This document shows positions 6,139 through 43,909 of a stretch of 64,000 nucleotides of DNA, piece by piece (the stretch's first letter is position 1; each line of letters starts with the position of its first letter). Origin of the DNA: a virus; IMG/VR virus record IMGVR_UViG_3300007770_001284, positions 1 through 64,000 of that record; one strand, given 5' to 3'. Made by a program: the position numbers and the translations under genes. A model generated the notes under the pieces. It saw only the letters and a program-made list of their open reading frames with translations. It had not been told where the DNA came from and did not search any database.

Positions 6139-6363
6139 ATGCCGTATAGCAAGAATCAGTCCACCAAGCGCTTTAGTTTTGGTATCACACGTAACTCCAC
6201 CAGCAAGAAGGCTGGCGCGAATGTCGTAACAATCGCAACCAACGCGGACGACAGTATGTACTACTCGACCCCCACCACGCAGCTCTCAATGACTGTCAAG
6301 GAAGCCCGAGTACTTCAGAGTTTCCTCAACGAGACTCTCGAGAGTGATATCAGCGTAGGGTAA
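6139..6363 (+). CDS. hypothetical protein, 74 residues
   Basis: ATG 6139 follows GGATGGAAAAAATAA. The N-terminus is basic (MPYSKNQSTKRFSFG). The C-terminal half has a clear helix (VKEARVLQSFLNETLES). It stands alone between a hairpin-rich region and a strong terminator, so it is probably its own transcription unit. No family recognised. Confidence 0.75.
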   Translation: MPYSKNQSTKRFSFGITRNSTSKKAGANVVTIATNADDSMYYSTPTTQLSMTVKEARVLQSFLNETLESDISVG

Positions 6364-6382
6364 TTTTTTACCGACGTGATTT

Positions 6383-6413
6383 AAAGCCGGGGATTTTTCC
6401 CCGGCTTTTTTTT
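6383..6413 (+). terminator. rho-independent terminator
   Basis: AAAGCCGGGGA pairs perfectly with TCCCCGGCTTT around a T4 loop and runs into eight T residues. It ends the gene at 6139-6363. Confidence 0.9.
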
Positions 6414-6439
6414 GAACAAAAGGCCGAGCGCTCTTACTA

Positions 6440-6660
6440 TTGAATTGGATCAGGGAGAGGTAAGAAGATGCCGTAGAAACTCGGGGAATGTGGAAGCGGA
6501 AAAAGTCAGCGCGTTGGGGGGACGCAAGGGTGATGTCATCGCCGTGTTTGGGAATGGTGGAACGTCGGCGAAAGCGGTGACGCAAACGAACCGTCAGACC
6601 GCAACATCGCCCGGGTGGTCGGGTCCGAGTTCCGACCACCCACTCCCCCTTCCCTGGTCC
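6440..6660 (+). ncRNA. possible structured RNA region
   Basis: Between the terminator at 6413 and the promoter at 6692 there is no credible gene, but several stems can be drawn. GGTGAT-GTC-ATCGCC and a ten-base perfect stem GGGTGGTCGG (6613-6622) with CCGACCACCC (6632-6641) are the clearest; GCGT/ACGC and CGTC/GACG are weaker. No T-run follows the long stem, so it is not a plain terminator. A 113-codon open frame at 6412-6753 crosses it but is unconvincing. No known RNA family recognised. Confidence 0.3.
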
Positions 6661-6691
6661 GATTTACGGAGGAAAATATTTTGCACAGCGC

Positions 6692-6720
6692 GTGCAAAAC
6701 TAGTGGTAATGTGGTACAAT
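6692..6720 (+). promoter_or_regulatory. phage-type promoter P1 (GTGCAA-N17-TACAAT)
   Basis: GTGCAA at 6692-6697, exactly 17 bases, TACAAT at 6715-6720, preceded by GTGG and followed by ATAATTGAATGGAGGG. The same layout recurs at 8606, 10068 and 13323. It drives the gene at 6766 after a leader with a short GGGA/TCCC stem. Confidence 0.85.
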
Positions 6721-6765
6721 ATAATTGAATGGAGGGATTGGTTCCCCCACTAACTTAGGAAGTAT

Positions 6766-7581
6766 ATGAGACTCCGTGACTACAAAGCCCTCCTCGTATC
6801 AGACCGCAAAGCGGCGATGCTATTCGATCTAACTGAGCGCCACCCACGCGGACCAGAAGCTAAGCTCCGCGCACGTGACTACGAGCCACACGAGGGTTAT
6901 TACAATAACGTCGGTGCTGTGCTGGTGCTGAAAGAGTCTTCAATCCCGGCGACAGCTGAAGGATCACCCGCTACCGGGGGATGGGACCCTCGCGAGATTT
7001 ACGAAATCGAATCCGGCGAGTGGGAGCTTAAGCGACTCCTCGAGCGTATCGAAGTACCTGAGGATGTCGGTCGTGGGTCAACTTGGGGAGTCCAAGATGG
7101 CAATCGGAAGCTGTTCCCCGGGGGAGGATCGGCACTGACTCGTAGGTCCCGCCGCGCTAGCGGACGTATCTACCAAGCGAAGCGGTGGGTCAAGGAAAAT
7201 ATCAAGACTGCTATCTACAGCGTCTCCCTCGGCTACGGCACTGAGGTCCACGTCCACGGTGACAGTGACGAACAAGCGTTCATGCAGTACGAAATGTTCC
7301 TCAAGGGTGGAGTGGCCGGAATCCCGGACGCTCGTAAAGGGTACGACAATCAAGCTCGCTACGTTAAGCCGGCCGATAGTCCGACCGCGCTGATGACTCT
7401 CAACTCGAAGTTCGTCAATGACATGGACAGTCAGGTTGCTGCTAGCCTGGCTAACATTGAAAAGCTGAAGAAGGAAGTGGAAGCGATGAAGGCCGCTAGG
7501 GAGTTGGTGTACAGCTACTCGGTCAACATGGCAGCTACCTACGGTATCGATGATGATGAAGATGACGAGGCGGCAGCATAA
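6766..7581 (+). CDS. hypothetical protein with coiled coil and acidic tail
   Basis: 271 residues; TAGGAAG precedes ATG 6766. The N-terminal half is mixed with many charged residues. A middle segment is basic (RRSRRASGRIYQAKRWVKE). Residues about 215-250 form a coiled-coil-like helix (NIEKLKKEVEAMKAARELV), and the protein ends in an acidic DDDEDDEAAA tail. First gene behind P1 and overlapping the next by one base. Acidic tails and coiled coils are common in scaffolding, nucleic-acid mimic or partner-binding proteins, but I cannot name a family. Confidence 0.82.
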   Translation: MRLRDYKALLVSDRKAAMLFDLTERHPRGPEAKLRARDYEPHEGYYNNVGAVLVLKESSIPATAEGSPATGGWDPREIYEIESGEWELKRLLERIEVPEDVGRGSTWGVQDGNRKLFPGGGSALTRRSRRASGRIYQAKRWVKENIKTAIYSVSLGYGTEVHVHGDSDEQAFMQYEMFLKGGVAGIPDARKGYDNQARYVKPADSPTALMTLNSKFVNDMDSQVAASLANIEKLKKEVEAMKAARELVYSYSVNMAATYGIDDDEDDEAAA

Positions 7582-7844
7582 TGGAAGAAGAACGTACACT
7601 CGGTCCACCTCAGATCCACGTCGGACTGTTCGCTCAAGCACATGAATTCGTGGATGAGTTGTGCGCCGGTATTGTCTATGGCGCGGCAGTCCAAGAGCTG
7701 GCCACACAGCAAGTCAGGATAACCACTGCGCTGGCTGAGACGAAATCTTTGGACGATCCAGGCGTGCAAGAATTGGCGGAGATTGACATGGAGATGGAAT
7801 TGAAGTGGCAACTTGCGTCTGAATTGTTTGGTATCGAGGCTTAA
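7581..7844 (+). CDS. hypothetical protein, 87 residues
   Basis: It starts one base inside the stop of the previous gene (TAATG). Largely helical and acidic (MELKWQLASELFGIEA at the end), with no signal or membrane segment. Co-transcribed from P1. No family recognised. Confidence 0.75.
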   Translation: MEEERTLGPPQIHVGLFAQAHEFVDELCAGIVYGAAVQELATQQVRITTALAETKSLDDPGVQELAEIDMEMELKWQLASELFGIEA

Positions 7845-7882
7845 CTAACACCATATTTAATAAGGAATGGAGGTAATGTCGA

Positions 7883-8170
7883 ATGGCAGATAATCTCGCA
7901 GTCTTTCACACTCTCTCGAAAACGTTGGATAATACTGAACTACGTGCAGCAATCAATATTCTGATTCGTGAGCGTAAATCCCGTGATGAGAGAAAGTCCA
8001 ATGATAATAGGTACTTGCTTAAGGTCGGTGACCGCGTTGAGTGGAACGGTCGAGCTGGGAATGCTACCGGTACTGTAACGAAGGTCAAGCGTAAGAAGGC
8101 TCTCGTCACGGAAGATATAATGAAGAGTCGGTGGGATATCCCGCTTAGCATGCTTACAAAGGTTTCATAG
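7883..8170 (+). CDS. small protein with C-terminal KOW/SH3-like segment
   Basis: 95 residues from ATG 7883, after GGAGG. The first half is helical and charged. The second half, VGDRVEWNGRAGNATGTVTKV then KALVTED, has the VGDxV-turn-GtV pattern of small SH3-like (KOW) barrels. That resembles the tiny VGDxV proteins at 16-20 kb. Likely binds RNA, DNA or a protein partner; function unknown. Confidence 0.75.
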   Translation: MADNLAVFHTLSKTLDNTELRAAINILIRERKSRDERKSNDNRYLLKVGDRVEWNGRAGNATGTVTKVKRKKALVTEDIMKSRWDIPLSMLTKVS

Positions 8171-8178
8171 GAGTCATC

Positions 8179-8352
8179 ATGGTTTGGACAGTCATATACA
8201 GCGAGGCGACCGTCAGCTATTCGATCACAATCACGACATGTGGCAACGATTACAACGAAGCGTTGCTAGAAGCAGAACGCCGCAAGCCACTTCACAGTAG
8301 TGTCTTCGCCATCCTAAAGGGAAGTCACACAGATACAGTCCGGTTCTACTAA
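8179..8352 (+). CDS. small hypothetical protein, 57 residues
   Basis: ATG 8179 opens a 57-codon frame ending TAA 8350-8352, between genes ending at 8170 and starting at 8363. A GGAG (8170-8173) precedes the start by five bases. The sequence (begins MVWTVIYSEATVSYSI) alternates like a beta sheet and ends HTDTVRFY. Position and spacing fit the operon. No family recognised. Confidence 0.65.
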   Translation: MVWTVIYSEATVSYSITITTCGNDYNEALLEAERRKPLHSSVFAILKGSHTDTVRFY

Positions 8353-8362
8353 GGAGGATACC

Positions 8363-8578
8363 GTGTCAGTAGCAGCAGAGAAGACTAGTCAAGAAAGTAG
8401 ATCGTATAGGAATTACGATTACATCAGCACGTCGTATTGCGACATGTGCAGGGTTCGAACCAGTGTCGTCAACATCGTGGCAACTGGTAGGAAAGTATGT
8501 GGCCGCTGCGATGAGGAACACTATCTCATCGTCGGTGAGCTGGAGAAGAACAGGTGGATGAGGACGGGGAGGCGGTGA
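8363..8578 (+). CDS. small zinc-ribbon protein
   Basis: 71 residues, GTG start at 8363 after a strong AAGGAGG. CDMC (residues about 29-32) and CGRC (about 48-51) form a four-cysteine zinc ribbon as seen in many small phage transcription or nucleic-acid-binding proteins. Last gene of the P1 unit before promoter P2. Confidence 0.75.
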   Translation: MSVAAEKTSQESRSYRNYDYISTSYCDMCRVRTSVVNIVATGRKVCGRCDEEHYLIVGELEKNRWMRTGRR

Positions 8579-8605
8579 AATAAAGTGAATTTTATTTGCA
8601 GCTTC

Positions 8606-8634
8606 GTGCAATTCTTCCCATAATATGGTACAAT
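8606..8634 (+). promoter_or_regulatory. phage-type promoter P2 (CTTCGTGCAA-N17-TACAAT)
   Basis: GTGCAA 8606-8611, 17 bases, TACAAT 8629-8634, followed by ATAAATGAAGGTGGGG. It drives the AAA ATPase gene at 8701. Confidence 0.9.
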
Positions 8635-8646
8635 ATAAATGAAGGT

Positions 8647-8672
8647 GGGGAAAGGAAGAGGTCCTTCTCCCC
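8647..8672 (+). promoter_or_regulatory. 5' leader hairpin of the AAA ATPase message
   Basis: GGGGAAAGGA (8647-8656) pairs with TCCTT-C-TCCCC (8662-8672) leaving one bulged C, ten pairs with an AGAGG loop. It starts within a few bases of the expected transcript start and has no T-run after it. It is therefore more likely a message-stabilising or translation-control stem than a terminator. Confidence 0.55.
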
Positions 8673-8700
8673 CCAAATAGTCACCCACTAAGGACAAATC

Positions 8701-9789
8701 ATGGACGTCAAAACTCTCAAAACATGTATCGCAGCCCTTCCACCCAATATCGCTGCGCTAATGCGCGGTCCCACCGGTGTCGGTAAGTCACACGTAGCCA
8801 AGGATGTCGCAGATGTCCTCGGGCTCCCATTCCTCGATGTCCGCGGAAGCACCATGGACGAGGCTAAGGTCGGCGGAATCCCGGATTTCGAGACCTCAAA
8901 GGAACGTGGGGTGTCCACCTTCTGTCCTCCCTCTTGGTTCAAGCGCGCTTGCGATGAGCCAGTTCTCCTGATGCTCGATGAGCTCAACCGCTCGATGCCG
9001 CAGGTACAGCAGGCCTTCTTTCAGATTGTCCTGGACCGAGAGCTCGGTAACGACGCTGACGGTGTACCTCTGAGGCTCCACCCCGGAACGCGTATCATCG
9101 CGGCAGTTAACTGCGGTAACGAATACGATGTCAACGACATGGATCCCGCCCTCTTGCGGCGCTTCTGGGTCTGTGACCTCGAGCCTACCGTAGCCGACTG
9201 GATTGAGTGGGCAACCGAAGCCGGTCTCGATAAGGTCCTGGTGGAGTTCATCCAGCAGAACCCCGAGCACTGGAGAGTCGACCCCGCCGATGTGGAATCT
9301 GGAACGGTCGTTCCTACTCCCGCCTCCTGGCACCGTCTCAGCGACACTCTGGTCTCGGCCGGATTGGAGCCTGCAAAGATGGCTGGATTCGAGGTTAGCT
9401 CGACTACCTACCCTCTGACCATGGGCTTCGTAGGTACGGAAGCTGCGATCTCCTTCGTTGACTTCCTCAAGAACTACGAACGTAACATTACCGCAGAGGA
9501 TGTCCTGGCCGGTAAGGTCACGGCAGAAGATGTCAAGGAGCTCCCCGCTTCTCAGAAGACTGCCCTCATCGACAAGATCAGCACTCACGCTGCTGAGAAC
9601 AAGTGGAAGAAGGCAGAGGTCAAGAGGATCGCGGCGTTCGCAACCGAACTCGGTGGTGAGTTCCTGATTGCAACCTTCACGGCAGTGCAGAGAGCCAACA
9701 ACATGGCGAACCTGCTCCCCCTCAACAAGTTGATTGGAATGGAAGTAGTCTCCCTGGTCAACGATGCACGGGCAGTGTCGAAGGACTAA
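8701..9789 (+). CDS. MoxR-type AAA+ ATPase
   Basis: 362 residues. GPTGVGKS at 23-30 is Walker A, LMLDE at 90-94 Walker B, AAVN at 134-137 sensor 1 and LLRRF at 151-155 the arginine-finger region. The gap between Walker A and B carries the MoxR-type segment around DEAKVGGIPDFE. MoxR ATPases act as chaperones for VWA-domain partners, often in metal insertion or complex remodelling. The partner is very likely the DUF2201 VWA protein at 10119, behind the next copy of the same promoter. AAGGAC precedes ATG 8701. Codon use is rich in C-ending codons, unlike the genes after 15 kb. Confidence 0.9.
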   Translation: MDVKTLKTCIAALPPNIAALMRGPTGVGKSHVAKDVADVLGLPFLDVRGSTMDEAKVGGIPDFETSKERGVSTFCPPSWFKRACDEPVLLMLDELNRSMPQVQQAFFQIVLDRELGNDADGVPLRLHPGTRIIAAVNCGNEYDVNDMDPALLRRFWVCDLEPTVADWIEWATEAGLDKVLVEFIQQNPEHWRVDPADVESGTVVPTPASWHRLSDTLVSAGLEPAKMAGFEVSSTTYPLTMGFVGTEAAISFVDFLKNYERNITAEDVLAGKVTAEDVKELPASQKTALIDKISTHAAENKWKKAEVKRIAAFATELGGEFLIATFTAVQRANNMANLLPLNKLIGMEVVSLVNDARAVSKD

Positions 9790-9790
9790 A

Positions 9791-9838
9791 GGGGAATGAC
9801 GTCCCCGGTGTCGGGGGGTGGGTGACCCCCCGGCGCCA
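9791..9838 (+). terminator. tandem hairpins, probable terminator
   Basis: GGGGA/(G)TCCCC followed by CGGGGGGT (9812-9819) with ACCCCCCG (9825-9832), then CATCTTTTATC. Two GC-rich stems right after the ATPase stop codon; the T-run is short, so termination may be partial. Confidence 0.6.
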
Positions 9839-9860
9839 TCTTTTATCACCCAGGAAAGAT

Positions 9861-10055
9861 ATGACGAATCAACCCACAGATACTGAAGTCATACAAGCTG
9901 TCCAACGATGGCTTATAGAAGCACGAGACTTCAGGAATGATGGGTATGTCCAGCACGGGTATAAAGAGAAATTGCTAGCGGTGCATGCCACCACAACAGC
10001 AGCTCTACAAACGCTGGGATTGATCACTAATATTTCCTCAGAAAAGAGTAATTAA
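9861..10055 (+). CDS. small hypothetical protein, 64 residues
   Basis: ATG 9861 follows CAGGAAAG. The frame stays open upstream through the hairpins, but that part is not credible. Mostly helical (TEVIQAVQRWLIEARDF), with no membrane segment. It lies between the ATPase terminator and promoter P3. No family recognised. Confidence 0.65.
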   Translation: MTNQPTDTEVIQAVQRWLIEARDFRNDGYVQHGYKEKLLAVHATTTAALQTLGLITNISSEKSN

Positions 10056-10067
10056 ATCTAACACTTC

Positions 10068-10096
10068 GTGCAATTGTGCTCAACATGTGGTACAAT
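10068..10096 (+). promoter_or_regulatory. phage-type promoter P3 (CTTCGTGCAA-N17-TACAAT)
   Basis: GTGCAA 10068-10073, 17 bases, TACAAT 10091-10096, followed by ATAATTGAAGGTAGGA. The leader is only about 20 bases, and its GAAGGTAGGA doubles as the ribosome binding site of the gene at 10119. Confidence 0.9.
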
Positions 10097-10118
10097 ATAA
10101 TTGAAGGTAGGAATGGAT

Positions 10119-11537
10119 ATGGCCGCTAAATCAAATACCCCAGAAGCTGGACGCGACATCGGCACGGTAACCCACGCTGATAAGGCAACTGCCGCCGCAT
10201 TCACTCTTAAGCCACACATCGTAGCGATGATGCTCGAAGAGCCCTTCTACGGAAAGGTCCTTCGGAAGGTCTCGAAGATTCGCACCGAGCAGGTCTCAAC
10301 CGCCGGTGTTCTCTGCCAAGATGGTGATCTTAAGCTCTGGTGGAACCCACGGTTCATGGCTGGTCTCCGGGCCAAGCACGTACGTGGAGTCATGAAGCAC
10401 GAAATGCTCCACCTGGTCTTCGAGCACACCACAACTCGTAAGTTCACTCCTCACATCATCTGGAACTACGCTACCGACCTGGCTATCAACAGCCACCTGG
10501 CCGATGAGCTCCCCGAGTTCTGTCTCCTCCCAGGTCGCGGGTTCAAGGCCCTCACCGCGGAAGATAAGGAAAAAATGGGAGAGGAAGCCGTCCGTCGGTA
10601 TGAACTGGTCTCCGCTAAGATCGAATCCTTCCCGCTGCACATGGCAGGGGAATGGTACTTCGCACGGTTGATGGAAGACAAGGACGTCGCTGACTCCATC
10701 CAGGATCCTAACCCCGATAAGAACGATTGTGAAGGTGATGGTGGCGGCGAAGGTCAGCCTGGAGAGGGTCAGCCCGGTCAGGGTGGTGGTCCCGGAAACG
10801 GAACTCCTCAGATGCCCGGTACTCTCGATGACCACGGTGGGTGGGGAGAGATGACGGACGAAGAGCGTGAGTTCGTGAAGGCCAAGATCAAGCAGGCCGC
10901 CGGCGATGCTGCTCGGGAGTGTGATGCTAAGGGTGGCTGGGGTAACGTCCCCGCGGAACTTCGGAAGAAGATTCGGGAAGCCCTCATCAGTGAACTTCCC
11001 TGGCAGAAGGTGCTGGATCGGTTCCTCGGCTACAGCCGTCGGGCCAACCGGTCTACCAGCTGGTCGACCATCCACTCCGCTTACGGTCCCATCACTCCTG
11101 GCGCGAAGCGAGGGTACACTTCTTCGGTAGCCACCTACATCGATCAGAGTGGGTCGGTTGGAGATGAGGAGCTTACGCTGCTCTTCGGTGAGTTGTCCGG
11201 TCTGGCTAAGAAGACTGAGTTCACTTGCTTCCACTTTGACACTGAGATTGATGAGGCCTCCAAGACAGTCTGGAAGAAGGGTCGGACACAGCCGCCGCAC
11301 CGGACTCGGGGTGGAGGTACTTGCTTCATCGCTCCTTCCAAGCACGCAAACGATCGGCGGAAGGAGTTCGACGGTTACGTCATCCTGACGGATGGTTACG
11401 CTAGCGACCCCGGTCCCAGCAAGTTGCCCCGGGCATGGATCATCACCCCTGACGGTGCAGTCCAAGACTGGATGAACAAGTACAAGAAGGACACCATCAT
11501 CCACATGAAGTGGCCGGCCAGCAGGGTCGCCGCTTAA
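10119..11537 (+). CDS. DUF2201-like putative metallopeptidase with VWA domain
   Basis: 472 residues from ATG 10119, six bases after AAGGTAGGA; ATG 10113 or TTG 10101 are alternatives. HEMLHLVFEH at 94-103 is an HExxH zinc-site motif with a further His. A Gly/Pro-rich linker (about residues 200-240) leads to a helical middle and a VWA-like domain with a MIDAS motif, YIDQSGSVGD, Asp about 342. This two-domain build fits the DUF2201 family, typically paired with a MoxR ATPase. The ATPase at 8701 is the expected partner. Target unknown; the pair may insert a metal into, or remodel, a protein complex. Confidence 0.85.
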   Translation: MAAKSNTPEAGRDIGTVTHADKATAAAFTLKPHIVAMMLEEPFYGKVLRKVSKIRTEQVSTAGVLCQDGDLKLWWNPRFMAGLRAKHVRGVMKHEMLHLVFEHTTTRKFTPHIIWNYATDLAINSHLADELPEFCLLPGRGFKALTAEDKEKMGEEAVRRYELVSAKIESFPLHMAGEWYFARLMEDKDVADSIQDPNPDKNDCEGDGGGEGQPGEGQPGQGGGPGNGTPQMPGTLDDHGGWGEMTDEEREFVKAKIKQAAGDAARECDAKGGWGNVPAELRKKIREALISELPWQKVLDRFLGYSRRANRSTSWSTIHSAYGPITPGAKRGYTSSVATYIDQSGSVGDEELTLLFGELSGLAKKTEFTCFHFDTEIDEASKTVWKKGRTQPPHRTRGGGTCFIAPSKHANDRRKEFDGYVILTDGYASDPGPSKLPRAWIITPDGAVQDWMNKYKKDTIIHMKWPASRVAA

Positions 11538-11551
11538 AATCAGGAGACTAC

Positions 11552-11728
11552 ATGTCTACCACGGAAGTCGAGTTCATTATGCTACAGCTGGCGGCTTTTA
11601 GCTTCGTCTGCTTTTCAATCGCCTTTGGAATCATTGGTGTGATGCTCAAGCGTAAGGCCAATGGAGAGATCCGGCCGCGGGTCAAGCGTCATCCTAACGG
11701 TCGTGTCATTCGAAACGCACGCGGCTAA
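11552..11728 (+). CDS. small membrane protein, 58 residues
   Basis: ATG 11552 follows CAGGAGA; an earlier in-frame start at 11510 would overlap the previous gene. One hydrophobic segment (LQLAAFSFVCFSIAFGIIGVML, about residues 11-32) is followed by a basic tail, predicting a single-span inner-membrane protein with the tail in the cytoplasm. Its end carries a partial copy of the CGCGGCTAAAAACA junction element. Function unknown. Confidence 0.7.
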   Translation: MSTTEVEFIMLQLAAFSFVCFSIAFGIIGVMLKRKANGEIRPRVKRHPNGRVIRNARG

Positions 11729-11773
11729 AAACAAAAACATCTAAAGAGCTAATAACTCCAATAGGAGAAGTGA

Positions 11774-12067
11774 ATGCAACATCGTAAGAAGGTAGAGTGT
11801 GCAGACGGATTCACGGTCTCGGTACAGGGTCACGAGGGTGCGTACTGTTCTCCCAGGAACGATGTCGGTCCCTACGAGTCTGTCGAGTGCGGGTTCCCAA
11901 GTCACTACGATATCCACCTGCAACCCTACGCCGAGGACCCGAGCCGACCGACCGAGACGGTCTACGGTTGGGTCCCGGCCGTCGTGGTCCAGCTCTGTAT
12001 CGACTCCCACGGCGGCATGGTCGCCGGGGAGTTGCCACCCTTTGTCCAGGGATACAAATCCGTGTAA
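11774..12067 (+). CDS. hypothetical protein, 97 residues
   Basis: ATG 11774 follows TAGGAGAAGTGA. Four Cys and several His (HRKKVECADG, HEGAYCS, VECGFPSHYD, LCIDSHGG) hint at metal binding or disulfides. No signal peptide. Three other frames are also open here because of GC-rich codons; this one has the ribosome binding site and the genome's usual composition. No family recognised. Confidence 0.65.
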   Translation: MQHRKKVECADGFTVSVQGHEGAYCSPRNDVGPYESVECGFPSHYDIHLQPYAEDPSRPTETVYGWVPAVVVQLCIDSHGGMVAGELPPFVQGYKSV

Positions 12068-12089
12068 CAAATAACAGATACATGTAACA

Positions 12090-12107
12090 CCGTAACATTT
12101 ATGTTAC
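12090..12107. repeat. 15-mer CCGTAACATTTATGT copy 2, within a hairpin
   Basis: Identical to 5890-5904. Here it is part of the perfect inverted repeat GTAACAT-TT-ATGTTAC (12092-12107). A third copy with one change lies at 12128-12142. Confidence 0.75.
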
Positions 12108-12123
12108 ACATGGGGTGAACCAA

Positions 12124-12257
12124 GGGGCCGTAACATTAATGTTTCACCCCCCATACGAGGCCCCTATTTCAAGGCCCATAGGGGCCTACCTCAAGGGCCC
12201 CAAAATTGGCCCCATCTGAGCCCCAAATTTAGGCCCCTCTGTACTCACCCAGAGGCC
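12124..12257. repeat. cluster of GGCCCC/GGGGCC words
   Basis: About nine short GGCC-centred words in 130 bases in both orientations (AGGGGCC, GAGGCCCC, AAGGCCC, AGGGGCC, AAGGGCCCC, TTGGCCCC, GAGCCCC, AGGCCCC, GAGGCC) separated by AT-rich spacers. They could fold with each other or bind a protein. Confidence 0.55.
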
Positions 12258-12371
12258 ACTGGTAGGGGTTGCCTTAGGCGAGGGAAATTTTTTTTTCGAG
12301 CTAATTTGAAAACCAAAAGCTAATTTCACACAAAAAATTCTCGAAGCAAATTCTAAAACAGCACCGGTATC

Positions 12372-12548
12372 ATGAAACATCAACTACACCCAAGAGAAAT
12401 AAAAGCTCGCACTCTCATGATATTGATCTCCATAGGGCTAGCACTCATCGTGCATTACTTCGCCAATGAGGCGCATGATATCCCACCACAGTCAGATTGT
12501 GAGTGTATGTGCCCAGACCACCGTGAACACGACACCACCGACCGTTAA
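12372..12548 (+). CDS. small membrane protein with Cys-rich tail, 58 residues
   Basis: ATG 12372 opens a 58-codon frame ending TAA 12546-12548. A basic N-terminus is followed by one membrane segment (TLMILISIGLALIVHYF, about 14-30) and a tail with CECMC, HREH and acidic residues that could bind metal. Topology N-in, tail out is likely. No strong ribosome binding site. It is 13 bases upstream of the next gene. Could be a lysis or envelope-acting peptide, but this is only a guess. Confidence 0.5.
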   Translation: MKHQLHPREIKARTLMILISIGLALIVHYFANEAHDIPPQSDCECMCPDHREHDTTDR

Positions 12549-12561
12549 AATAAGGAATACC

Positions 12562-12996
12562 ATGAGCAAGTACAACATCCGCATCAAGCCAAGAGATCTC
12601 GCCATAGTGAAAGAGCACATCAAGGATGGGCGTAAGATCGCAGCCATCAAGCACGCGAGGTCGACCGGGAAGCAATACCCTCCCCGCGAGAGCTCCATGC
12701 CCGGGGAAGAGAACAAGCTGGATTACTCCCCTGCCTTGAAATGCGCGAAAGACGCCGTTGAGGTATTGATGGGATCGTGCCAACGACAAGCCGCCCATGC
12801 TCTGTTCACCCCTATGTTCAAGATCCTCAGCTTCAAAGTAGAGACCGAAGATGGTACAGTAGAGGTCGATGTCGACGAATTGCGCATAAGACTCCTGGAT
12901 GGCATGAGCGAAATGAGCCTGTCTGAGATGTCCCACATGACTGACCTCGCAGTATACGTTGCCAAGTGGCAAGGTGATGATGTCGATAATAGTTAA
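12562..12996 (+). CDS. hypothetical protein, 144 residues
   Basis: ATG 12562 after AATAAGGA is preferred to the in-frame start at 12466, which overlaps the small membrane gene. The N-terminal 45 residues are basic (IRIKPRDLAIVKEHIKDGRKIAAIKHAR); the C-terminal half is acidic and helical (EMSLSEMSHMTDLAVYVAKW). A helical middle with CAKDAVEVLM suggests a compact helical domain. No family recognised. Confidence 0.72.
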   Translation: MSKYNIRIKPRDLAIVKEHIKDGRKIAAIKHARSTGKQYPPRESSMPGEENKLDYSPALKCAKDAVEVLMGSCQRQAAHALFTPMFKILSFKVETEDGTVEVDVDELRIRLLDGMSEMSLSEMSHMTDLAVYVAKWQGDDVDNS

Positions 12997-13013
12997 ACGC
13001 CGGAAGGTGTATC

Positions 13014-13307
13014 ATTTCGAAGCGCGAAGATCCTATCCCGATCAATCACTTAGCTGGGCCGATACACCTAAGCGGCGATATCATCTATTTTTATCCTAAC
13101 AGTGATTGGGAAACTACTGGTGTCGTGTGTCATGATAGCGATGGAGCTGCTTACGATCAATCGGGTACTGCCTTATACACAGGTATCGTCGTGAGTAACG
13201 TCTACGTGTATACTGCTGACTGTCTGTATTTCTACGACGTGTTATGTGGTGATGGCAGGATCCGGCGCTTGAAATCTACGGAGATCTACGGTATCTCAAA
13301 GGGATAA
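13014..13307 (+). CDS. hypothetical protein, probably ATT-initiated
   Basis: The frame is open from 12993 to the TAA at 13305-13307, but the first ATG/GTG/TTG codon is GTG 13125. Upstream of that GTG the translation still looks like protein (HLSGDIIYFYPNSDWETTGVV), with the GDxv-x-GVV pattern of SH3-like small proteins. ATT 13014 lies six bases after GGAAGG, an ideal spacing, giving 97 residues. A GTG 13125 start would leave 60 residues and no ribosome binding site. Either way a gene is likely. Confidence 0.5.
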   Translation: MSKREDPIPINHLAGPIHLSGDIIYFYPNSDWETTGVVCHDSDGAAYDQSGTALYTGIVVSNVYVYTADCLYFYDVLCGDGRIRRLKSTEIYGISKG

Positions 13308-13322
13308 CTTTTGTTTTTCTTC

Positions 13323-13351
13323 GTGCAAACTGAGCCCACGTGTGGTATAAT
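13323..13351 (+). promoter_or_regulatory. phage-type promoter P4 (CTTCGTGCAA-N17-TATAAT)
   Basis: GTGCAA 13323-13328, 17 bases, TATAAT 13346-13351, followed by ATAAATGAAGGTCGGGG. The first credible gene downstream starts more than 430 bases away, so it transcribes a long leader or an RNA gene. Confidence 0.9.
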
Positions 13352-13379
13352 ATAAATGAAGGTCGGGGTAGATAGTCCT

Positions 13380-13735
13380 CTTCCCTCTGTTCTTTGAATC
13401 TCGTAAAGGAAGTAGCAAATGGCTTGGCTCCACGTGTCCGGCTCAATATTGAGCGGCAAAGCTTAGGATGACGATGGTATAAGACCCATCGAGCAAGTAG
13501 AGAGCGTCTGACCCGCAAGGGATGTCCGGTTCTCGATCACGCACCTGTGCCAATCACGTGGCCTTTACGCAATATTATGAGGAGCTGTTGGGGATACCCA
13601 GCAGAGTCGATGGGAGTCGGCAGTCGTCGTTGAAGTCGAAGCTCGCGAGCCAGTTAACTAATGTATCGCGTCTCTCTGAGGGCTGGTGAACAGTTAAATA
13701 ACCAATACCCGCATCGTACGGACGGGCTCCCATCT
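13380..13735 (+). ncRNA. possible structured RNA or long leader behind P4
   Basis: No credible gene over about 350 bases. Stems that can be drawn include GCTCAAT/ATTGAGC (about 13441), CGATGG-N8-CCATCG, CTGTTGGG-GATA-CCCAGCAG (one GU pair; about 13582-13601) and GCTCGCGAGC. Inside lies a 15-codon frame with a good ribosome binding site (AAAGGAAG then ATG about 13420; peptide MAWLHVSGSILSGKA), which might be a leader peptide. No known family (tmRNA, RNase P, 6S) recognised. Confidence 0.4.
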
Positions 13736-20259: not shown

Positions 20260-20288
20260 GTGTAAACGTAACAGTCTATTATTACAAT
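20260..20288 (+). promoter_or_regulatory. variant phage-type promoter (GTGTAA-N17-TACAAT)
   Basis: GTGTAA 20260-20265, exactly 17 bases, TACAAT 20283-20288 followed by ATGTTAAGTGAGG. One base differs from the -35 core of P1-P4 and the -10 is identical; the CTTC extension is missing. It drives the HD gene at 20309. Confidence 0.6.
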
Positions 20289-35756: not shown

Positions 35757-36923
35757 ATGTCAATTTTTCAAAGACACAAGACAATCGCTGATCGATCTGC
35801 TGGAGATCGATCCCGACATCGCAAAAAAATTGAGCGCGCTATTAAAGAGGGTATCTATAATATCGTTGCAGAAGAATCCATAATAGGAAAAGAGGGAAAG
35901 AAGAAATTTCGGATTCCTGTCCGCGGTATTAAGGAGTATCGTTTTGTCTATGGTGACAACGGATCAAAAAGAGTGGGCTCTGCGCAGGGTAAAGATGTCA
36001 AGCGTGGACAAGTGATCGGTAAAAAAGAGCAAGCAGAAGCTCCCGGAGAAGGCGAGGCTGGAAACCAGAAAGGAGAAGAGTATTACGAAGTAGAGCTTAC
36101 GCTAGACCAATTATCAGAATATCTTTTCAAAGATTTAGAGCTTCCAAACTTTGAAAAAAAGAAAAACATGAATGTGATATCGAAAAAGATCAAACGTCAT
36201 GGCTACAGAAGCAAAGGTATCCGACCACGATTAGACAAAAAAAAGACTGTAGTTGAAAAACTTAAGCGAAAAAATAAAAGCAAATTTATTTCAAGTGCAG
36301 AAAAGCAAGAAGAAGAAAGTTTCCCGTTCCACGATAATGACCTAAAGTATAGACACTACAAGGTTCACGAGAAAAAAAGCTCTAATGCAGTCATATTCTT
36401 CTTAATGGATATTTCAGGATCGATGTCAAAGCCAAAAAAATATCTAGCGCGAAGCTTCTTTTTTCTGTTATATCATTTTATTAGAGCGAGATATGATACA
36501 GTTGATTTAGTTTTTGTGGCTCATGATGTAGAGGCCTACGAAGTGACAGAAGAACAATTTTTTGGACGAGGATCTTCAGGGGGAACACTGGTATCCAGCG
36601 CGCTGAGCATGACAGATAACGTTATATCATCTAGATATCACCCTAATAGTTGGAATGTATATATTTTTCAGTGCTCTGATGGTGATAACTGGCCTACTGA
36701 TAACCAGAAGACGACTGAGCTAGCAAATCGGTTGCTTGAAAAAGTTCAATTTTTTGGATATTGTCAAATAGAGCCGAACGCAGAAAGAGCCGCTCACCCC
36801 AACCATGGCAGCTTACAAGAAGTGTATCAGCCTCTTATAGGACAAAAGTTTAAAACTGCTGAGGTCAGCTCAAAAGAGCATATCTGGCCAGCATTTAGAA
36901 CGTTTTTTGGAAATGATTTATGA
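35757..36923 (+). CDS. DUF444 (YeaH/YhbH) VWA protein
   Basis: 388 residues. The start FQRHKTIADRSAGDRSRHRKKIERAI, split here across the family's signature, and a second signature later, mark DUF444. A basic, Gly/Glu-rich linker follows; FFLMDISGSM with Asp218 is the MIDAS of a C-terminal VWA domain, and QCSDGDNWPTDN is a conserved family stretch. In bacteria this gene accompanies prkA and spoVR (yeaG-yeaH-ycgB in E. coli). The same trio follows here in the order DUF444, SpoVR, PrkA. Overlaps spoVR by four bases. Confidence 0.93.
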   Translation: MSIFQRHKTIADRSAGDRSRHRKKIERAIKEGIYNIVAEESIIGKEGKKKFRIPVRGIKEYRFVYGDNGSKRVGSAQGKDVKRGQVIGKKEQAEAPGEGEAGNQKGEEYYEVELTLDQLSEYLFKDLELPNFEKKKNMNVISKKIKRHGYRSKGIRPRLDKKKTVVEKLKRKNKSKFISSAEKQEEESFPFHDNDLKYRHYKVHEKKSSNAVIFFLMDISGSMSKPKKYLARSFFFLLYHFIRARYDTVDLVFVAHDVEAYEVTEEQFFGRGSSGGTLVSSALSMTDNVISSRYHPNSWNVYIFQCSDGDNWPTDNQKTTELANRLLEKVQFFGYCQIEPNAERAAHPNHGSLQEVYQPLIGQKFKTAEVSSKEHIWPAFRTFFGNDL

Positions 36924-38230
36924 GCGCTAATTTCTTAAAATCTCTTGAAGCGTGGGATGAAAAGATAGTCAAGCTAGCTAGCGAATACGGGTTAGATTGG
37001 TTTCCTATCATTTATGAAACCTGTGACTATTATGAGATGATTGGTAACATGGCATATCACGGCATGCCCACGCATTATAGGCATTGGAGCTTCGGGAAAT
37101 CATTCGAGCGTACCCATGCAATGTATGATGCTGGACTAGAGGGTCTTCCATACGAACTAATAATAAACAGCGATCCTTCGTTAGCCTACTTGATGGAAGA
37201 AAACCCATTGTACTTACAAGTTTTGATTATGTGCCACTGCGTTGGTCACTCAGATTTTTTTAAGAACAATATTACTTTTGCAAATACAGGGCCAGACCAT
37301 ATTCTATTACGCATGCGCAATGCAAAGAGATTTGTCGACGGTCTAATAGAAGATCCTTCAATCGGTGTACAAAGGGTAGAAGAAATTCTAGATGCTGCTC
37401 ATGCCCTTTCTCTTCAAGTGCCAAGACGTTATAAAAAATATGTGACGCAGAAAGAACAAAAAATGCACTTAATTCATGATATCAAAAACGGTAAATATGA
37501 GAATGCTGACATAACACCCAGCCCTAAAGCAATACCGGTTAGTCCAGAGCAAAATATTTTGGCATTCCTCGCCGAGTGCAGTCCTCATCTCGAAGACTGG
37601 GAGCGGGAGCTATTACACTTCGCGCGCGAGGATGCTGAATATTTCATGCCACAAATTAGGACAAAGATCATGAATGAAGGGTGGGCGTCATTTTGGCATT
37701 ACAGATTGATGCACGACCTTCAGCTCCCAACCTCGATGCATATTCCTTTTCTCAAAATGCACAATGAAGTTACAAAACCTCACCTGGGGAGCATTAACCC
37801 TTACCATTTGGGATTTTATCTTTTTAGAAAAATAGAAGAGCGCCACGGGCTAAAAGAATGTTTCATCGCAAGAGAAGCATTAAATGATGAATCGTTTATA
37901 AGACAATATTTAACAGAGGAAGATTGTGTTAATTTAAACTTGTTTACGTTTGGACTGGACAAAAAAAGCTATGTAATAGAGGATGTATCGGATGAACCTG
38001 GATGGAAATCAGTGAAAGAAAACCTAATCAAACAGGTTTCTGCGAATAATATTCCTTCAATTATAGTTGACAGAGTGGACAGCGCAAACATACTGTGCTT
38101 GAAACACGATCATGACGGCCGCGATTTGGAGCTAGAGTATGCAGAATCAGTTATTGAACACATCACAACGTTATGGGGGGATGTAGTTAAACTTGATACG
38201 TTCATTGAAGATGAGCCATTTGAGATTTAA
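36920..38230 (+). CDS. SpoVR family protein
   Basis: 436 residues. GLDWFPIIYETCDYYEMIG, MPTHYRHWSFGKSFER, YELIINSDPSLAYLMEEN and MCHCVGHSDFFKNN are near-diagnostic for SpoVR/YcgB, as are EGWASFWHY and NPYHLGFYLFRKIEERHG further on. Slightly shorter than the bacterial proteins (about 470-510). The biochemical role is unknown; in bacteria it is linked to stationary phase or spore cortex together with PrkA. Confidence 0.95.
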   Translation: MSANFLKSLEAWDEKIVKLASEYGLDWFPIIYETCDYYEMIGNMAYHGMPTHYRHWSFGKSFERTHAMYDAGLEGLPYELIINSDPSLAYLMEENPLYLQVLIMCHCVGHSDFFKNNITFANTGPDHILLRMRNAKRFVDGLIEDPSIGVQRVEEILDAAHALSLQVPRRYKKYVTQKEQKMHLIHDIKNGKYENADITPSPKAIPVSPEQNILAFLAECSPHLEDWERELLHFAREDAEYFMPQIRTKIMNEGWASFWHYRLMHDLQLPTSMHIPFLKMHNEVTKPHLGSINPYHLGFYLFRKIEERHGLKECFIAREALNDESFIRQYLTEEDCVNLNLFTFGLDKKSYVIEDVSDEPGWKSVKENLIKQVSANNIPSIIVDRVDSANILCLKHDHDGRDLELEYAESVIEHITTLWGDVVKLDTFIEDEPFEI

Positions 38231-38244
38231 TACGGAGCAAAAAT

Positions 38245-40179
38245 ATGTCAAAGAATAAGAGCAAATATCTTGATATCATTACTAGTCAAAGAAAAAAGAA
38301 GTCTTCTGAAAAGTTTGAGGGAAGTTTGCTTGACTATTTTGCACTCTTAGAAAAGAATCCATCGTTAGCTGACCGCGCGCATAAGAGGCTTTACGATGTT
38401 ATAACGTCACACGGGGTCTCAGTACTTGAAGACGAAGACCCACGAAAGTACAAGCTTTTTGATGGTGACAATGTTAAGATTTATGATTATTTCGCTGATG
38501 AATTTTTTGGAATGGAAAATGTTATTTCAAAAATCTTAAGATACCTGAGGTCTGCTGCGCATAATGGTGAAGAGTCCAGACAGGTGTTATTATTAATGGG
38601 TCCAGTTGGTGCCGGGAAATCTGCTTTAACAGAGCATATCAAAGCTTCGCTTGAAAGTGTAAAATATTATCACCTAAAAGACGATCCGCAGAGAGGCGAT
38701 CCACTACAGCTAGTTCCGCGATCGCTACGGAAACGTTTCAGCAAGATGCTTAACGTTTCAATTGAGGGAGATATTTCTCCTGTTGCCAGGTTCTTATTGT
38801 TCGAAAAGTACGAGGGGTCTTACGAAGAATTTGAAGTTGTTGAAACAACATTCTCTCAACGTGCTCGTCGGGGGATCGCAACAGTACCGCCAATGGATGC
38901 AAACAGCCAAGATGTTTCAGTGTTAATTGGGTCAGAAGACATTTCGAAGCTAGACAAATATTCTGAAGATGACCCCCGGGCGCTATCCCTAAATGGTGCG
39001 TTTAACGTCGGTAACAGAGGGCTGGTCGAACTTGTGGAGGTCTTTAAGAACGAAATTGAGTTTCTCCATACTATCATTACTGCAACACAGGAGAAGAGGA
39101 TTCCTTCCCCCGGAAAGCATGACATGCTACACTTCGACGGTGTTATTCTTGCTCATTGTAATGAAGCCGAATGGAACCGGTTTCAAAGCGAACATACAAA
39201 CGAGGCAATATTAGATAGAATTGTTAAAGTTGAAGTACCGTATGTTCTAGAGCTAGCGCAAGAAATGAAGATATATCAAAAAATTCTTGATCGTTCCCAT
39301 TTTTCTTCTCATATCGCGCCTCATACACTTCGTGTGGCGTCAATGTTTTCTATTCTTAGTCGGCTCCATGCTAGCCAAAAGTGCGATCTTCTTACGAAGC
39401 TTAAGATTTATAACGGCGAAGATGTTGTTGAAAAGGGTCGTGTCAAAAAAATTGATATTAAAGACCTAAGAGACGAAGCTCCGCATGAGGGAATGCAGGG
39501 TATTTCAACGCGCTTTATAATGAAGGCTATCGATAATGCTTTGAGCGATTCTGATAAAGATTTTATTACTCCTGTTTCTATTCTTGACTCATTAGTGAAG
39601 CAGGTCAAAGAGCAACTTACTGATTTTGATTTTCAAAACCACTGTCTAGATCTGCTCAGAAATACCGTACGTGACGAGTATCTTCGTATGCTGGAAAACG
39701 AAATTGCAAAAGCGTTTATAACAGCATACGAAGAACAAGCACAGGCTATTTTCGAAAATTACCTCGACAATGCCGAAGCCTTCACAACTCACTCTAAAAT
39801 GAAAGACAAAGTAACAAAGGAAGAGCGCACCCCTGACGAAGAATTTATGAAAGCAATTGAGGGAGCGATCGGGGTGAGCAATTCTGGAAGAGAGGGCTTC
39901 AGGGCTGACGTTACCGCATATATGTTTTCAAAAATGAGACGTGGCGAAGTTGTAGACTATACATCTTATGAACCGTTAAAAGACGCAATCGAAACATATC
40001 TCATCACATCTGTGAAAGATCTGGCACGAATTGTTACAAAATCAAAAACAAGAGATGACGACCAAAAACAAAAGTACTCAAGCATGGTACAAACGCTGAT
40101 CGACGAATATGGTTATACAGCTGCGTCCGCGGAAGAGATCTTGGTGTTCGCCAGCAATAACTTATGGAGAGATAGCTAA
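38245..40179 (+). CDS. prkA: PrkA-family AAA/serine protein kinase
   Basis: 644 residues, the same length as E. coli YeaG. An N-terminal helical part leads to LLMGPVGAGKSAL with Walker A 119-126 and the AAA core typical of PrkA; RRGIATVPPMDANSQDVSVLIGSED and NRGLVELVEVFKNEIEFLHTI, shown here in pieces, are family signatures; the C-terminal part should be the kinase-like domain. PrkA proteins are linked to nutrient limitation and stationary-phase control, and some are AAA-type proteases rather than kinases. Presence on a phage suggests manipulation of host starvation physiology. One-base overlap with the next gene. Confidence 0.95.
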   Translation: MSKNKSKYLDIITSQRKKKSSEKFEGSLLDYFALLEKNPSLADRAHKRLYDVITSHGVSVLEDEDPRKYKLFDGDNVKIYDYFADEFFGMENVISKILRYLRSAAHNGEESRQVLLLMGPVGAGKSALTEHIKASLESVKYYHLKDDPQRGDPLQLVPRSLRKRFSKMLNVSIEGDISPVARFLLFEKYEGSYEEFEVVETTFSQRARRGIATVPPMDANSQDVSVLIGSEDISKLDKYSEDDPRALSLNGAFNVGNRGLVELVEVFKNEIEFLHTIITATQEKRIPSPGKHDMLHFDGVILAHCNEAEWNRFQSEHTNEAILDRIVKVEVPYVLELAQEMKIYQKILDRSHFSSHIAPHTLRVASMFSILSRLHASQKCDLLTKLKIYNGEDVVEKGRVKKIDIKDLRDEAPHEGMQGISTRFIMKAIDNALSDSDKDFITPVSILDSLVKQVKEQLTDFDFQNHCLDLLRNTVRDEYLRMLENEIAKAFITAYEEQAQAIFENYLDNAEAFTTHSKMKDKVTKEERTPDEEFMKAIEGAIGVSNSGREGFRADVTAYMFSKMRRGEVVDYTSYEPLKDAIETYLITSVKDLARIVTKSKTRDDDQKQKYSSMVQTLIDEYGYTAASAEEILVFASNNLWRDS

Positions 40180-43512: not shown

Positions 43513-43839
43513 TTAATGTTTGTGATGGGGGCCCTTAAATTCTTTGAGTGTTTTTGGGCCCGAGGTTTTCAAAAATTGCTTCGCTGCTTTCTCGATTTGA
43601 CAAATACGCATCCTGGTAACATTAAACATGTCTCCCACCTCTTGCAACGTAAACGGTCCGGTTCGCGCAGCCAGAATGATACAGTTATGATGCTTTTCAT
43701 TTTCCATGGCATGCCAATAACGACATGAAGTTTTTTCGCACATCTGACCCGCTTCTTTATGCGCCGCAAAGCAAGTCATACCCTCGATTATCTCAGGCTC
43801 ATCGATGTTATCATTTTTTAGTGAATCATTATTATCCAT
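43513..43839 (-). CDS. sigma-70 region 4-like regulator
   Basis: 108 residues, minus strand. FTLQEVGDMFNVTRMRICQIEKAAKQFLK in two parts is the helix-turn-helix of sigma-70 region 4 (TLEEVG..F.VTRERIRQIE..A...L). Before it, three Cys and two His (MTCFAA, CEKTSCRYWH) may bind zinc. No region 2, so it cannot be a full sigma factor. It may direct polymerase to the phage promoters or act as an anti-sigma/appropriator. Divergent from phoH. Confidence 0.82.
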   Translation of the reverse strand: MDNNDSLKNDNIDEPEIIEGMTCFAAHKEAGQMCEKTSCRYWHAMENEKHHNCIILAARTGPFTLQEVGDMFNVTRMRICQIEKAAKQFLKTSGPKTLKEFKGPHHKH

Positions 43840-43909
43840 ATAGCTTCCTCTTAGTTCGATCTAACGTTATTCTAAAAGGAAACAATTGCATTTTTCAAGG
43901 AGAATAAAT

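Follow-up and report, generated by a model that had tools for sequence, protein, structure and literature searches.

GTGYAA promoters of uncultured large phages and a detached sigma region 4.2: a candidate split sigma system

Introduction

Which protein reads a phage promoter that keeps the extended -10 element of sigma-70 and has a -35 hexamer of another kind? The question is raised by the first 64,000 bases (the window) of IMG/VR virus record IMGVR_UViG_3300007770_001284, an uncultured phage record of 254,743 bases, in which four sites between positions 6692 and 13351 combine GTGCAA with a TAYAAT box after a spacer of 17 bases. An earlier note on this DNA had described the sites as a phage-specific promoter family and named as possible reader a protein resembling sigma region 4 and encoded at 43513. 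Here, the promoter element, this protein (P0001), and a phage sigma factor are followed through viral sequence collections. The window phage and many of its uncultured relatives seem to encode sigma in two separate pieces, a body that stops after region 4.1 and a stand-alone region 4.2. Judging from sequence comparison, we consider it fairly probable that these pieces form part of a split sigma system and that the region 4.2 protein acts within it as the reader of the -35 hexamer GTGYAA.

Results

The four promoter sites

All four sites are exact matches on the plus strand: promoter 1, with GTGCAA at 6692-6697 and TACAAT at 6715-6720; promoter 2, at 8606..8634; promoter 3, at 10068..10096; and promoter 4, at 13323..13351. 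Their description in the earlier note proved accurate, in that GTGCAA is present in each, the spacing is exactly 17 bases, TGG directly precedes TAYAAT in four of four, and ATAAWTGAA followed by a G-rich stretch lies downstream. The -10 box is TACAAT at three sites and TATAAT at 13323, and the bases preceding GTGCAA are GCGC at 6692 and CTTC at the other three. A scan of the whole record for GTGCAA-N17-TAYAAT returned five exact matches, all on the plus strand, the fifth being located beyond the window at record position 225675; the reversed pattern gave none. The matches are intergenic, save for the overlap of the 6692 site with a TTG-started open reading frame (ORF) of 113 amino acids (6412-6753), which is taken to be spurious.

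For scoring, a matrix of 43 positions was derived from 72 sites of nine other phages, the window phage being excluded. Because these training sites were selected by exact GTGCAA and TATAAT, the twelve letters of the two boxes are fixed in the matrix, and so is the spacing of 17 bases. Run over 124 kb of the phage record, with ten Markov-shuffled copies as the null, the matrix gave eight matches with scores of at least 9, compared to 0.4 per run in the shuffled copies (maximum score, 11.7). Promoters 1 to 4 scored 32.0, 35.1, 32.6, and 42.4, respectively, and the matches beyond the window at 225675, 243817, 223318, and 216458 scored 40.8, 25.5, 14.2, and 13.8. A weaker fifth site had been proposed at 20260..20288 (plus strand; GTGTAA-N17-TACAAT); the string is present, but it is unsupported as a promoter because its score is below 9, and the GTGTAA-N17-TATAAT element with TGG at record position 243817 is the better candidate. 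With two mismatches allowed, the pattern does not exceed chance in the window (16 matches versus 11.1 expected), and the evidence therefore consists of the exact sites plus their context. For the whole record, the same pattern gave 42 forward and 24 reverse matches versus 13 and 20 for the control. Comparison of the DNA from 6300 to 13700 with GenBank phages revealed no similarity, and a search for late-promoter motifs in the 124 kb yielded nothing convincing.

Architecture of the element

Conservation in the training sites of the matrix peaks in CGTGCAAA and TRTGGTATAATATA. The -10 side corresponds to the extended -10 element of sigma-70, TRTGG-TAYAAT, while the -35 hexamer, as previously recognized, is not TTGACA; instead, it is GTGCAA in the window sites and GTGYAA according to de novo enrichment. 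When the hexamers located 15 to 19 bases above TAYAAT were ranked de novo, GTGCAA at 17 bases or in an overlapping register came out on top in 10 of 10 promoter-selected phages; in phages selected by the region 4.2 protein, the top hexamer was GTGTAA at 17 bases (G082 and G085) or a shifted TGTAAA box (G049). GTGYAA was above the null in 12 of 12 phages, by factors ranging from about 2-fold to more than 30-fold, with TTGACA promoters near the null in the same phages. The TGG before the -10 box is less strict across the family and often absent in G020, G082, and G085.

Spacing variants were considered as well. The 18-base group proved mixed: most of its entries represent a single coding sequence conserved in marine contigs, which was recognized by GGTGCT/GGTGCA downstream and removed. 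Matches with spacings of 19 to 21 bases are chance or coding by appearance. A subclass with 18-base spacing, present in L019, L024, L040, L073, and L116, shows GAYAAT directly above CGTGCAA. Separately, many transcript leaders (8644-8674 in the window; L244-L262) would start with a G-rich hairpin of the GGGGAAUGG..CCCC type; such hairpins occur only at a subset of sites, and other leaders run straight into the ribosome site.

Spread of the element among phages

Scanning IMG/VR with the pattern CGTGCAA-N14-18-TGGTAYAAT yielded at least 117 stretches; among the matches listed, the 17-base class comprises 65 entries, 53 of them distinct, and the 18-base class 19 distinct ones after removal of the coding sequence. 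The box is found in many uncultured large phages, often in 5 to 20 copies per record. In the records selected by the motif, a biased sample, 32 of 38 distinct ones carry the 17-base pattern, with 116 sites in sum and up to 18 per record; the sites lie nearly always on one strand, and the reversed pattern was encountered once.

A second set of 50 records (4.27 Mb) was picked by the region 4.2 protein alone, from 80 kept loci of which the remainder were duplicates, short, or already used. It contains 83 GTGYAA-N17-TATAAT sites distributed over 14 records, 52 of the sites being located in G082 and G085; with the reversed GTGTAA pattern as a control, 51 records yielded a single site. The control set, whose base composition is unmatched, comprised 11 GenBank phages and 16 viral contigs (27 records, 4.66 Mb; absence of the 4.2 protein was checked in the GenBank phages and, among the contigs, in G133-G136) and contains a single such site, which is located in T4. 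A promoter class with a non-sigma-70 -35 element, as postulated, thus recurs in records selected independently of the motif and is nearly absent from the controls. With respect to the 4.2 gene, 76 of the 83 sites lie on its 3' side. Among 17 records that extend for 25 kb or more on that side, 6 possess the exact 17-base box, 14 to 50 kb from the 4.2 gene, a number that rises to 8 if G040 (18 bases) and G049 (shifted TGTAAA box) are counted. A rule that the 4.2 gene and the promoters occupy opposite strands held in 13 of 13 records and was abandoned, the strand being the same in G061, G064, G080, and G082.

In the genome collection, the strict GTGCAA promoter pattern was detected in 25 stretches. 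Eleven streptococcal genomes, mostly of S. parasanguinis, carry it once each (L129, L130, L132, L134, L137, L138, L140, L142, L144, L145, and L149).

P0001, a stand-alone region 4.2

P0001 is a protein of 108 amino acids encoded at 43513..43839 on the minus strand and was assigned to sigma-70 region 4.2 by its profile match. It matches Pfam Sigma70_r4 (PF04545) with 34.6 bits (cutoff, 24.1; E value, 1.3e-8), covering positions 7 to 46 of 50. Relatives occur in 13 of 39 motif-derived records, the window's own included, and in 254 viral contigs, a set that was reduced to 80. None was found in 50,697 GenBank phage records at E values of ≤1e-3, and a relative of P0001 used as the query against GenBank phages gave short matches only, in 11 records. 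In 65 aligned sequences, four cysteines (C23, C34, C39, and C53) are invariant, and this Cys4 module probably binds zinc. The recognition-helix residues R76, M77, R78, C80, Q81, E83, and K84 are likewise invariant in 65 of 65, although part of the invariance of the family reflects selection, since the aligned sequences were scanned for with the peptide patterns MR[IV]CQIE and TLQ[EQ][IV]GD[IML].

The AlphaFold model of P0001 has a predicted local distance difference test (pLDDT) value of 83, and its residues 61 to 95 superimpose on residues 394 to 428 of Taq sigmaA (1ku3) with a root mean square deviation of 0.9 Å over 35 residues (Z, 2.4). The best Foldseek match was 1ku7, i.e., region 4 on -35 DNA, with a probability of 0.95 but an E value of 1.0 (VIA Z, ≤3.0). 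The superposition on 1ku3 places R76, M77, C80, and Q81 at the positions of R409, E410, R413, and Q414 of Taq sigmaA, which we take to be the residues reading the -35 hexamer. Compared to the -35 contact positions of primary sigma factors, two are thus kept in P0001 (R76 and Q81) and two are changed (M77 and C80). The proposal that the reader is the protein encoded at 43513 therefore stands as regards a region 4.2 detectable by profile, an altered helix, and, as described below, a phage sigma factor devoid of exactly that part; recognition of GTGYAA itself is what we infer from these features.

Upstream of the P0001 gene, a weak candidate promoter of the sigma-70 type, TTGAAA-N18-TAGAAT (10 of 12 matches), is located at 43869..43898 on the minus strand, and TTGAAA-N18-TANAAT is similarly placed at five loci, namely the window's and those of four close relatives. 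Over 52 loci, neither a GTGYAA nor a sigma-70 signal stood out clearly from control hexamers upstream of the 4.2 gene, and none of these loci has an exact GTGYAA promoter above the 4.2 gene (best score, 10 of 12).

A phage sigma factor truncated after region 4.1

A family search identified a sigma factor of 251 amino acids encoded at record positions 220496-221251, beyond the window. Its regions 1.2, 2, and 3 match Pfam with 46.5, 75.4, and 37.3 bits, respectively, all above the cutoff. Of Pfam region 4, only positions 1 to 18 of 50 are matched, and the protein ends 25 amino acids after RLRFG. In the model RpoD_Cterm (TIGR02393, 238 positions), this sigma covers positions 1 to 195 and P0001 positions 194 to 236; in the RpoD model PRK05658 (631 positions), the corresponding ranges are 391 to 587 and 590 to 628. 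The two separately encoded pieces together thus cover one sigma, and their complementary coverage places the split at the boundary of regions 4.1 and 4.2. If the genome is circular, the sigma gene lies about 78 kb from the P0001 gene.

The truncation is a property of the family. Eighty relatives from viral contigs were fetched by similarity to eight such proteins, and 73 of the 77 readable ones (3 were unreadable) stop after region 4.1, whereas 4 carry region 4.2; L385 was counted by eye. The four records with a full-length sigma gave one match each to the 4.2 profile, at their own sigma genes. Matches to region 2 were present in 9 of 22 records searched; two further ones, in G031 (191 amino acids) and in the second copy of G056 (237 amino acids), were excluded from alignment A2 as divergent, and a structure prediction of the sigma body (pLDDT, 74.5) was not used. 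Seven records with one of the pieces have a length of 250 kb or more, and every one of them contains the other piece too (G000, G006, G026, G049, G057, G101, and G106).

GTGYAA boxes upstream of sigma genes

The sigma gene of the window phage is itself preceded by a GTGYAA element, GTGCAA-N18-TATAAT at record position 220400, 96 bases above the start codon; having 18-base spacing, it is invisible to the matrix with its fixed spacing of 17. Among 64 distinct truncated-sigma genes, which were selected by sigma alone, 33 have TATAAT in the stretch examined upstream, and in 15 an exact GTGYAA lies 17 or 18 bases above it. The same test gave a mean of 0.12 over 179 permuted hexamers and 0 for TTGACA; the highest count of any permutation, 7, was obtained with G[CT]GTAA, which itself contains GTGTAA. 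Tolerating one mismatch gave 31 positives among 68 distinct sigma genes, compared to 6 with the reversed box; none of the 4 full-length sigma genes in this set was positive.

Genes adjacent to the promoters and to the sigma gene

Promoter 1 precedes a 271-amino-acid ORF starting at 6766, and promoter 2 precedes a gene for a MoxR-type AAA ATPase (8701-9789; Pfam AAA_5). The leader transcribed from promoter 2 has a predicted hairpin at its 5' end, at 8644..8674 on the plus strand (minimum free energy, -17.0 kcal/mol; z of -2.3 versus mononucleotide shuffles of the first 45 nucleotides of the leader). The leader of promoter 3 has about 10 to 16 nucleotides and is followed by a gene for a DUF2201 metallopeptidase/VWA-like protein (Pfam; start at 10113 or 10119, end at 11537). 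Promoter 4 is followed by an ORF of 15 codons (13420-13467), possibly a leader peptide, and then by a 227-amino-acid ORF at 13661.

A helix-turn-helix (HTH)-like protein of 92 amino acids (GYREIAEIMTEHGDSMKHSAARN) is encoded at L124:6508-6786, equivalent to record positions 221251-221529; its gene starts within the sigma stop codon, and the protein is conserved behind many sigma relatives. Its interpretation as a second region 4 found no support (hhalign probability, 0.5%), and it gave no Pfam match above the cutoff, no PHROG or NCBIfam match at the thresholds used, and no match in GenBank phages; a role as a second reader, for late promoters, is possible. A chaperonin (Cpn60) gene is situated just above the sigma gene (L124:3833-5416), and a peptide deformylase gene lies below it (L124:7615-8262). 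At positions 35757-40179, the window contains a cluster of DUF444, SpoVR, and PrkA serine kinase genes; the DUF444 member is presumably of the YeaH/YhbH type. Such genes are otherwise known from spore formers and in connection with stress, and PrkA relatives occur in phages of Thermus and in huge phages from metagenomes.

Discussion

In the model that we favor, the four sites would serve as phage promoters for a redirected host RNA polymerase, their GTGYAA hexamer being read by P0001, a region 4.2 detached from sigma, equipped with a Cys4 module and a changed recognition helix, and supplied in trans. The 4.2 protein would be made early from a host-type promoter and dock on RNA polymerase in place of the host region 4.2. 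The GTGYAA promoters would then fire, including the one before the phage sigma gene, and the phage sigma would subsequently work with the 4.2 protein and/or the small HTH-like product of the gene immediately downstream of its own. P0001 could pair with the host sigma or with the phage sigma, or with one after the other; the location of the sigma gene behind a GTGYAA promoter argues that the host sigma serves first.

Several observations weigh against this model. Only 3 of 45 truncated-sigma records have a 4.2 gene on the same contig; none is present in the truncated-sigma records G092 (201.6 kb) and G095 (235.7 kb), and G085 (235.7 kb) possesses the 4.2 gene and 22 boxes without a sigma match. 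Records shorter than 250 kb mostly carry a single piece and may be fragments. In the searches made, no box turned up in nine of the 17 4.2-selected records in which the expected flank spans 25 kb or more. De novo hexamer searches in G056, G057, G059, G075, G087, and G088 found nothing, and 40- to 80-kb samples of these six and of G101, G105, and G106, all encoding the 4.2 protein, contain no promoter-like hexamer pair. Furthermore, the C/T variation in the box occurs without a matching change in the helix. Finally, residues of the phage sigma at the positions presumed to read the -10 region (-12 and extended -10) differ by eye from those of sigma-70, so that the partner at the -10 box may be the host sigma.

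Among the alternatives, a two-subunit phage sigma is a possibility of some weight, though a tentative one: the truncated sigma (regions 1.2 to 4.1) and the 4.2 protein would act jointly at GTGYAA, with the host sigma displaced. The complementary coverage of RpoD and the occurrence of both pieces in 7 of the 7 long records (≥250 kb) agree with such an arrangement, and GTGYAA before the sigma gene would fit positive feedback. However, a first round would need another sigma, since the sigma gene sits behind a GTGYAA promoter, and the boxes keep the sigma-70 -10 element in spite of the deviating residues mentioned above.

The main rival to a phage-encoded reader is a host primary sigma that itself has GTGYAA specificity, in which case the sites would be plain host-type promoters. 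The standard and extended -10 elements and the lack of enrichment of TTGACA-type promoters in these phages are compatible with this explanation, and the phage specificity claimed in the earlier note holds within what was searched. Nevertheless, we regard a host sigma of this kind as unlikely. The strict pattern is rare in the genome collection, with only the 25 stretches mentioned. In G149 (4.9 Mb), the one metagenome-assembled genome that contains such a phage contig, 13 of 15 sites fall on contigs C16 and C25, the latter being the phage contig, and the other 13 genomes have 1 to 4 sites each, the selection site included. Moreover, the G+C content of the phage stretches with boxes ranges from 28% to 49%, which suggests several hosts. 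Still less likely is that another phage protein binds GTGYAA in the manner of MotA, with the 4.2 protein acting as an anti-sigma or in another role: T4 middle promoters do work with an activator combined with a region-4 remodeler (PMC6755090), but the idea requires an additional protein, the box lies at the position read by region 4.2, 17 bases from the -10 box, and P0001 retains the counterparts of R409 and Q414 of Taq sigmaA.

Sigma factors divided between polypeptides have precedents. SigO-RsoA of Bacillus subtilis is a sigma-70-type factor on two polypeptides, for which sigma 2, 3, and sigma 4 parts are listed in the domain table of PMC10141391. The likeness to this bacterial pair consists in the distribution of sigma over two polypeptides; by description, the phage pair is set apart by the cut at 4.1/4.2, the Cys4 module on region 4.2, the distance between the genes, and a promoter class of its own. 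In T4, gp55 is reportedly the phage sigma among the late factors; T4 late promoters are not known to have a -35 box, nor gp33 to read one. Compared by description, T4 gp55/gp33 and the present system share a phage sigma and a separate HTH protein, whereas the window phage has a conserved -35 box and its separate piece keeps the region 4.2 helix. Passages of PMC7824862 portray gp33 as an HTH protein of its own that contacts the polymerase beta subunit at the site used by sigma, and they report minimal single-HTH sigma-like proteins beside RpoD-like ones in group 2 jumbo phages (Iyer et al. 2021). The likeness here lies in stand-alone, sigma-like HTH proteins of jumbo phages; a sigma without region 4.2, complementary pieces, or a promoter element are not described in those passages. 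At T4 middle promoters, host sigma-70 is used with the phage factors AsiA and MotA acting at region 4 (PMC6755090). AsiA and MotA are proteins of another kind; in the window phage, by description, a single protein derived from sigma region 4 would combine the two roles, acting 17 bases from the -10 box. SPO1 gp33 and gp34 are two phage proteins responsible for one sigma activity. They are annotated as "sigma factor accessory" and "sigma factor," respectively, and gp33 forms a Pfam family of its own (PF25742), for which the homology test against the 4.2 profile was negative (hhalign probability, 0.1%). Split sigmas and stand-alone sigma-like HTH proteins are hence already known; the open-access literature searched yielded neither the 4.1/4.2 cut nor the altered -35 box nor the combination of the two, and no description of GTGCAA/GTGTAA phage promoters.

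As for origin, we offer the following as a speculation with a modest chance of being correct. A whole lineage of large uncultured phages may have cut sigma-70 at 4.1/4.2, and the loose region 4.2, on its zinc module, may have re-evolved as an exchangeable reader of GTGYAA. The sigma body would then take swappable heads, with GTGYAA genes served by the 4.2 protein and late genes by the HTH-like protein, the cascade being driven via its own GTGYAA promoter.

The selection of genes for transcription, in bacteria as in their viruses, is the task of sigma factors, among which split forms are rare and, where known, built in different ways. In a widespread group of uncultured phages, represented by 254 viral contigs with the 4.2 protein, a promoter box, a candidate detached reader, and a sigma body that lacks this part make up a matched set. 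The altered -35 specificity would be testable with three small genes in a laboratory strain, promoter prediction in unculturable giant phages would become possible, and the arrangement suggests an orthogonal transcription system.

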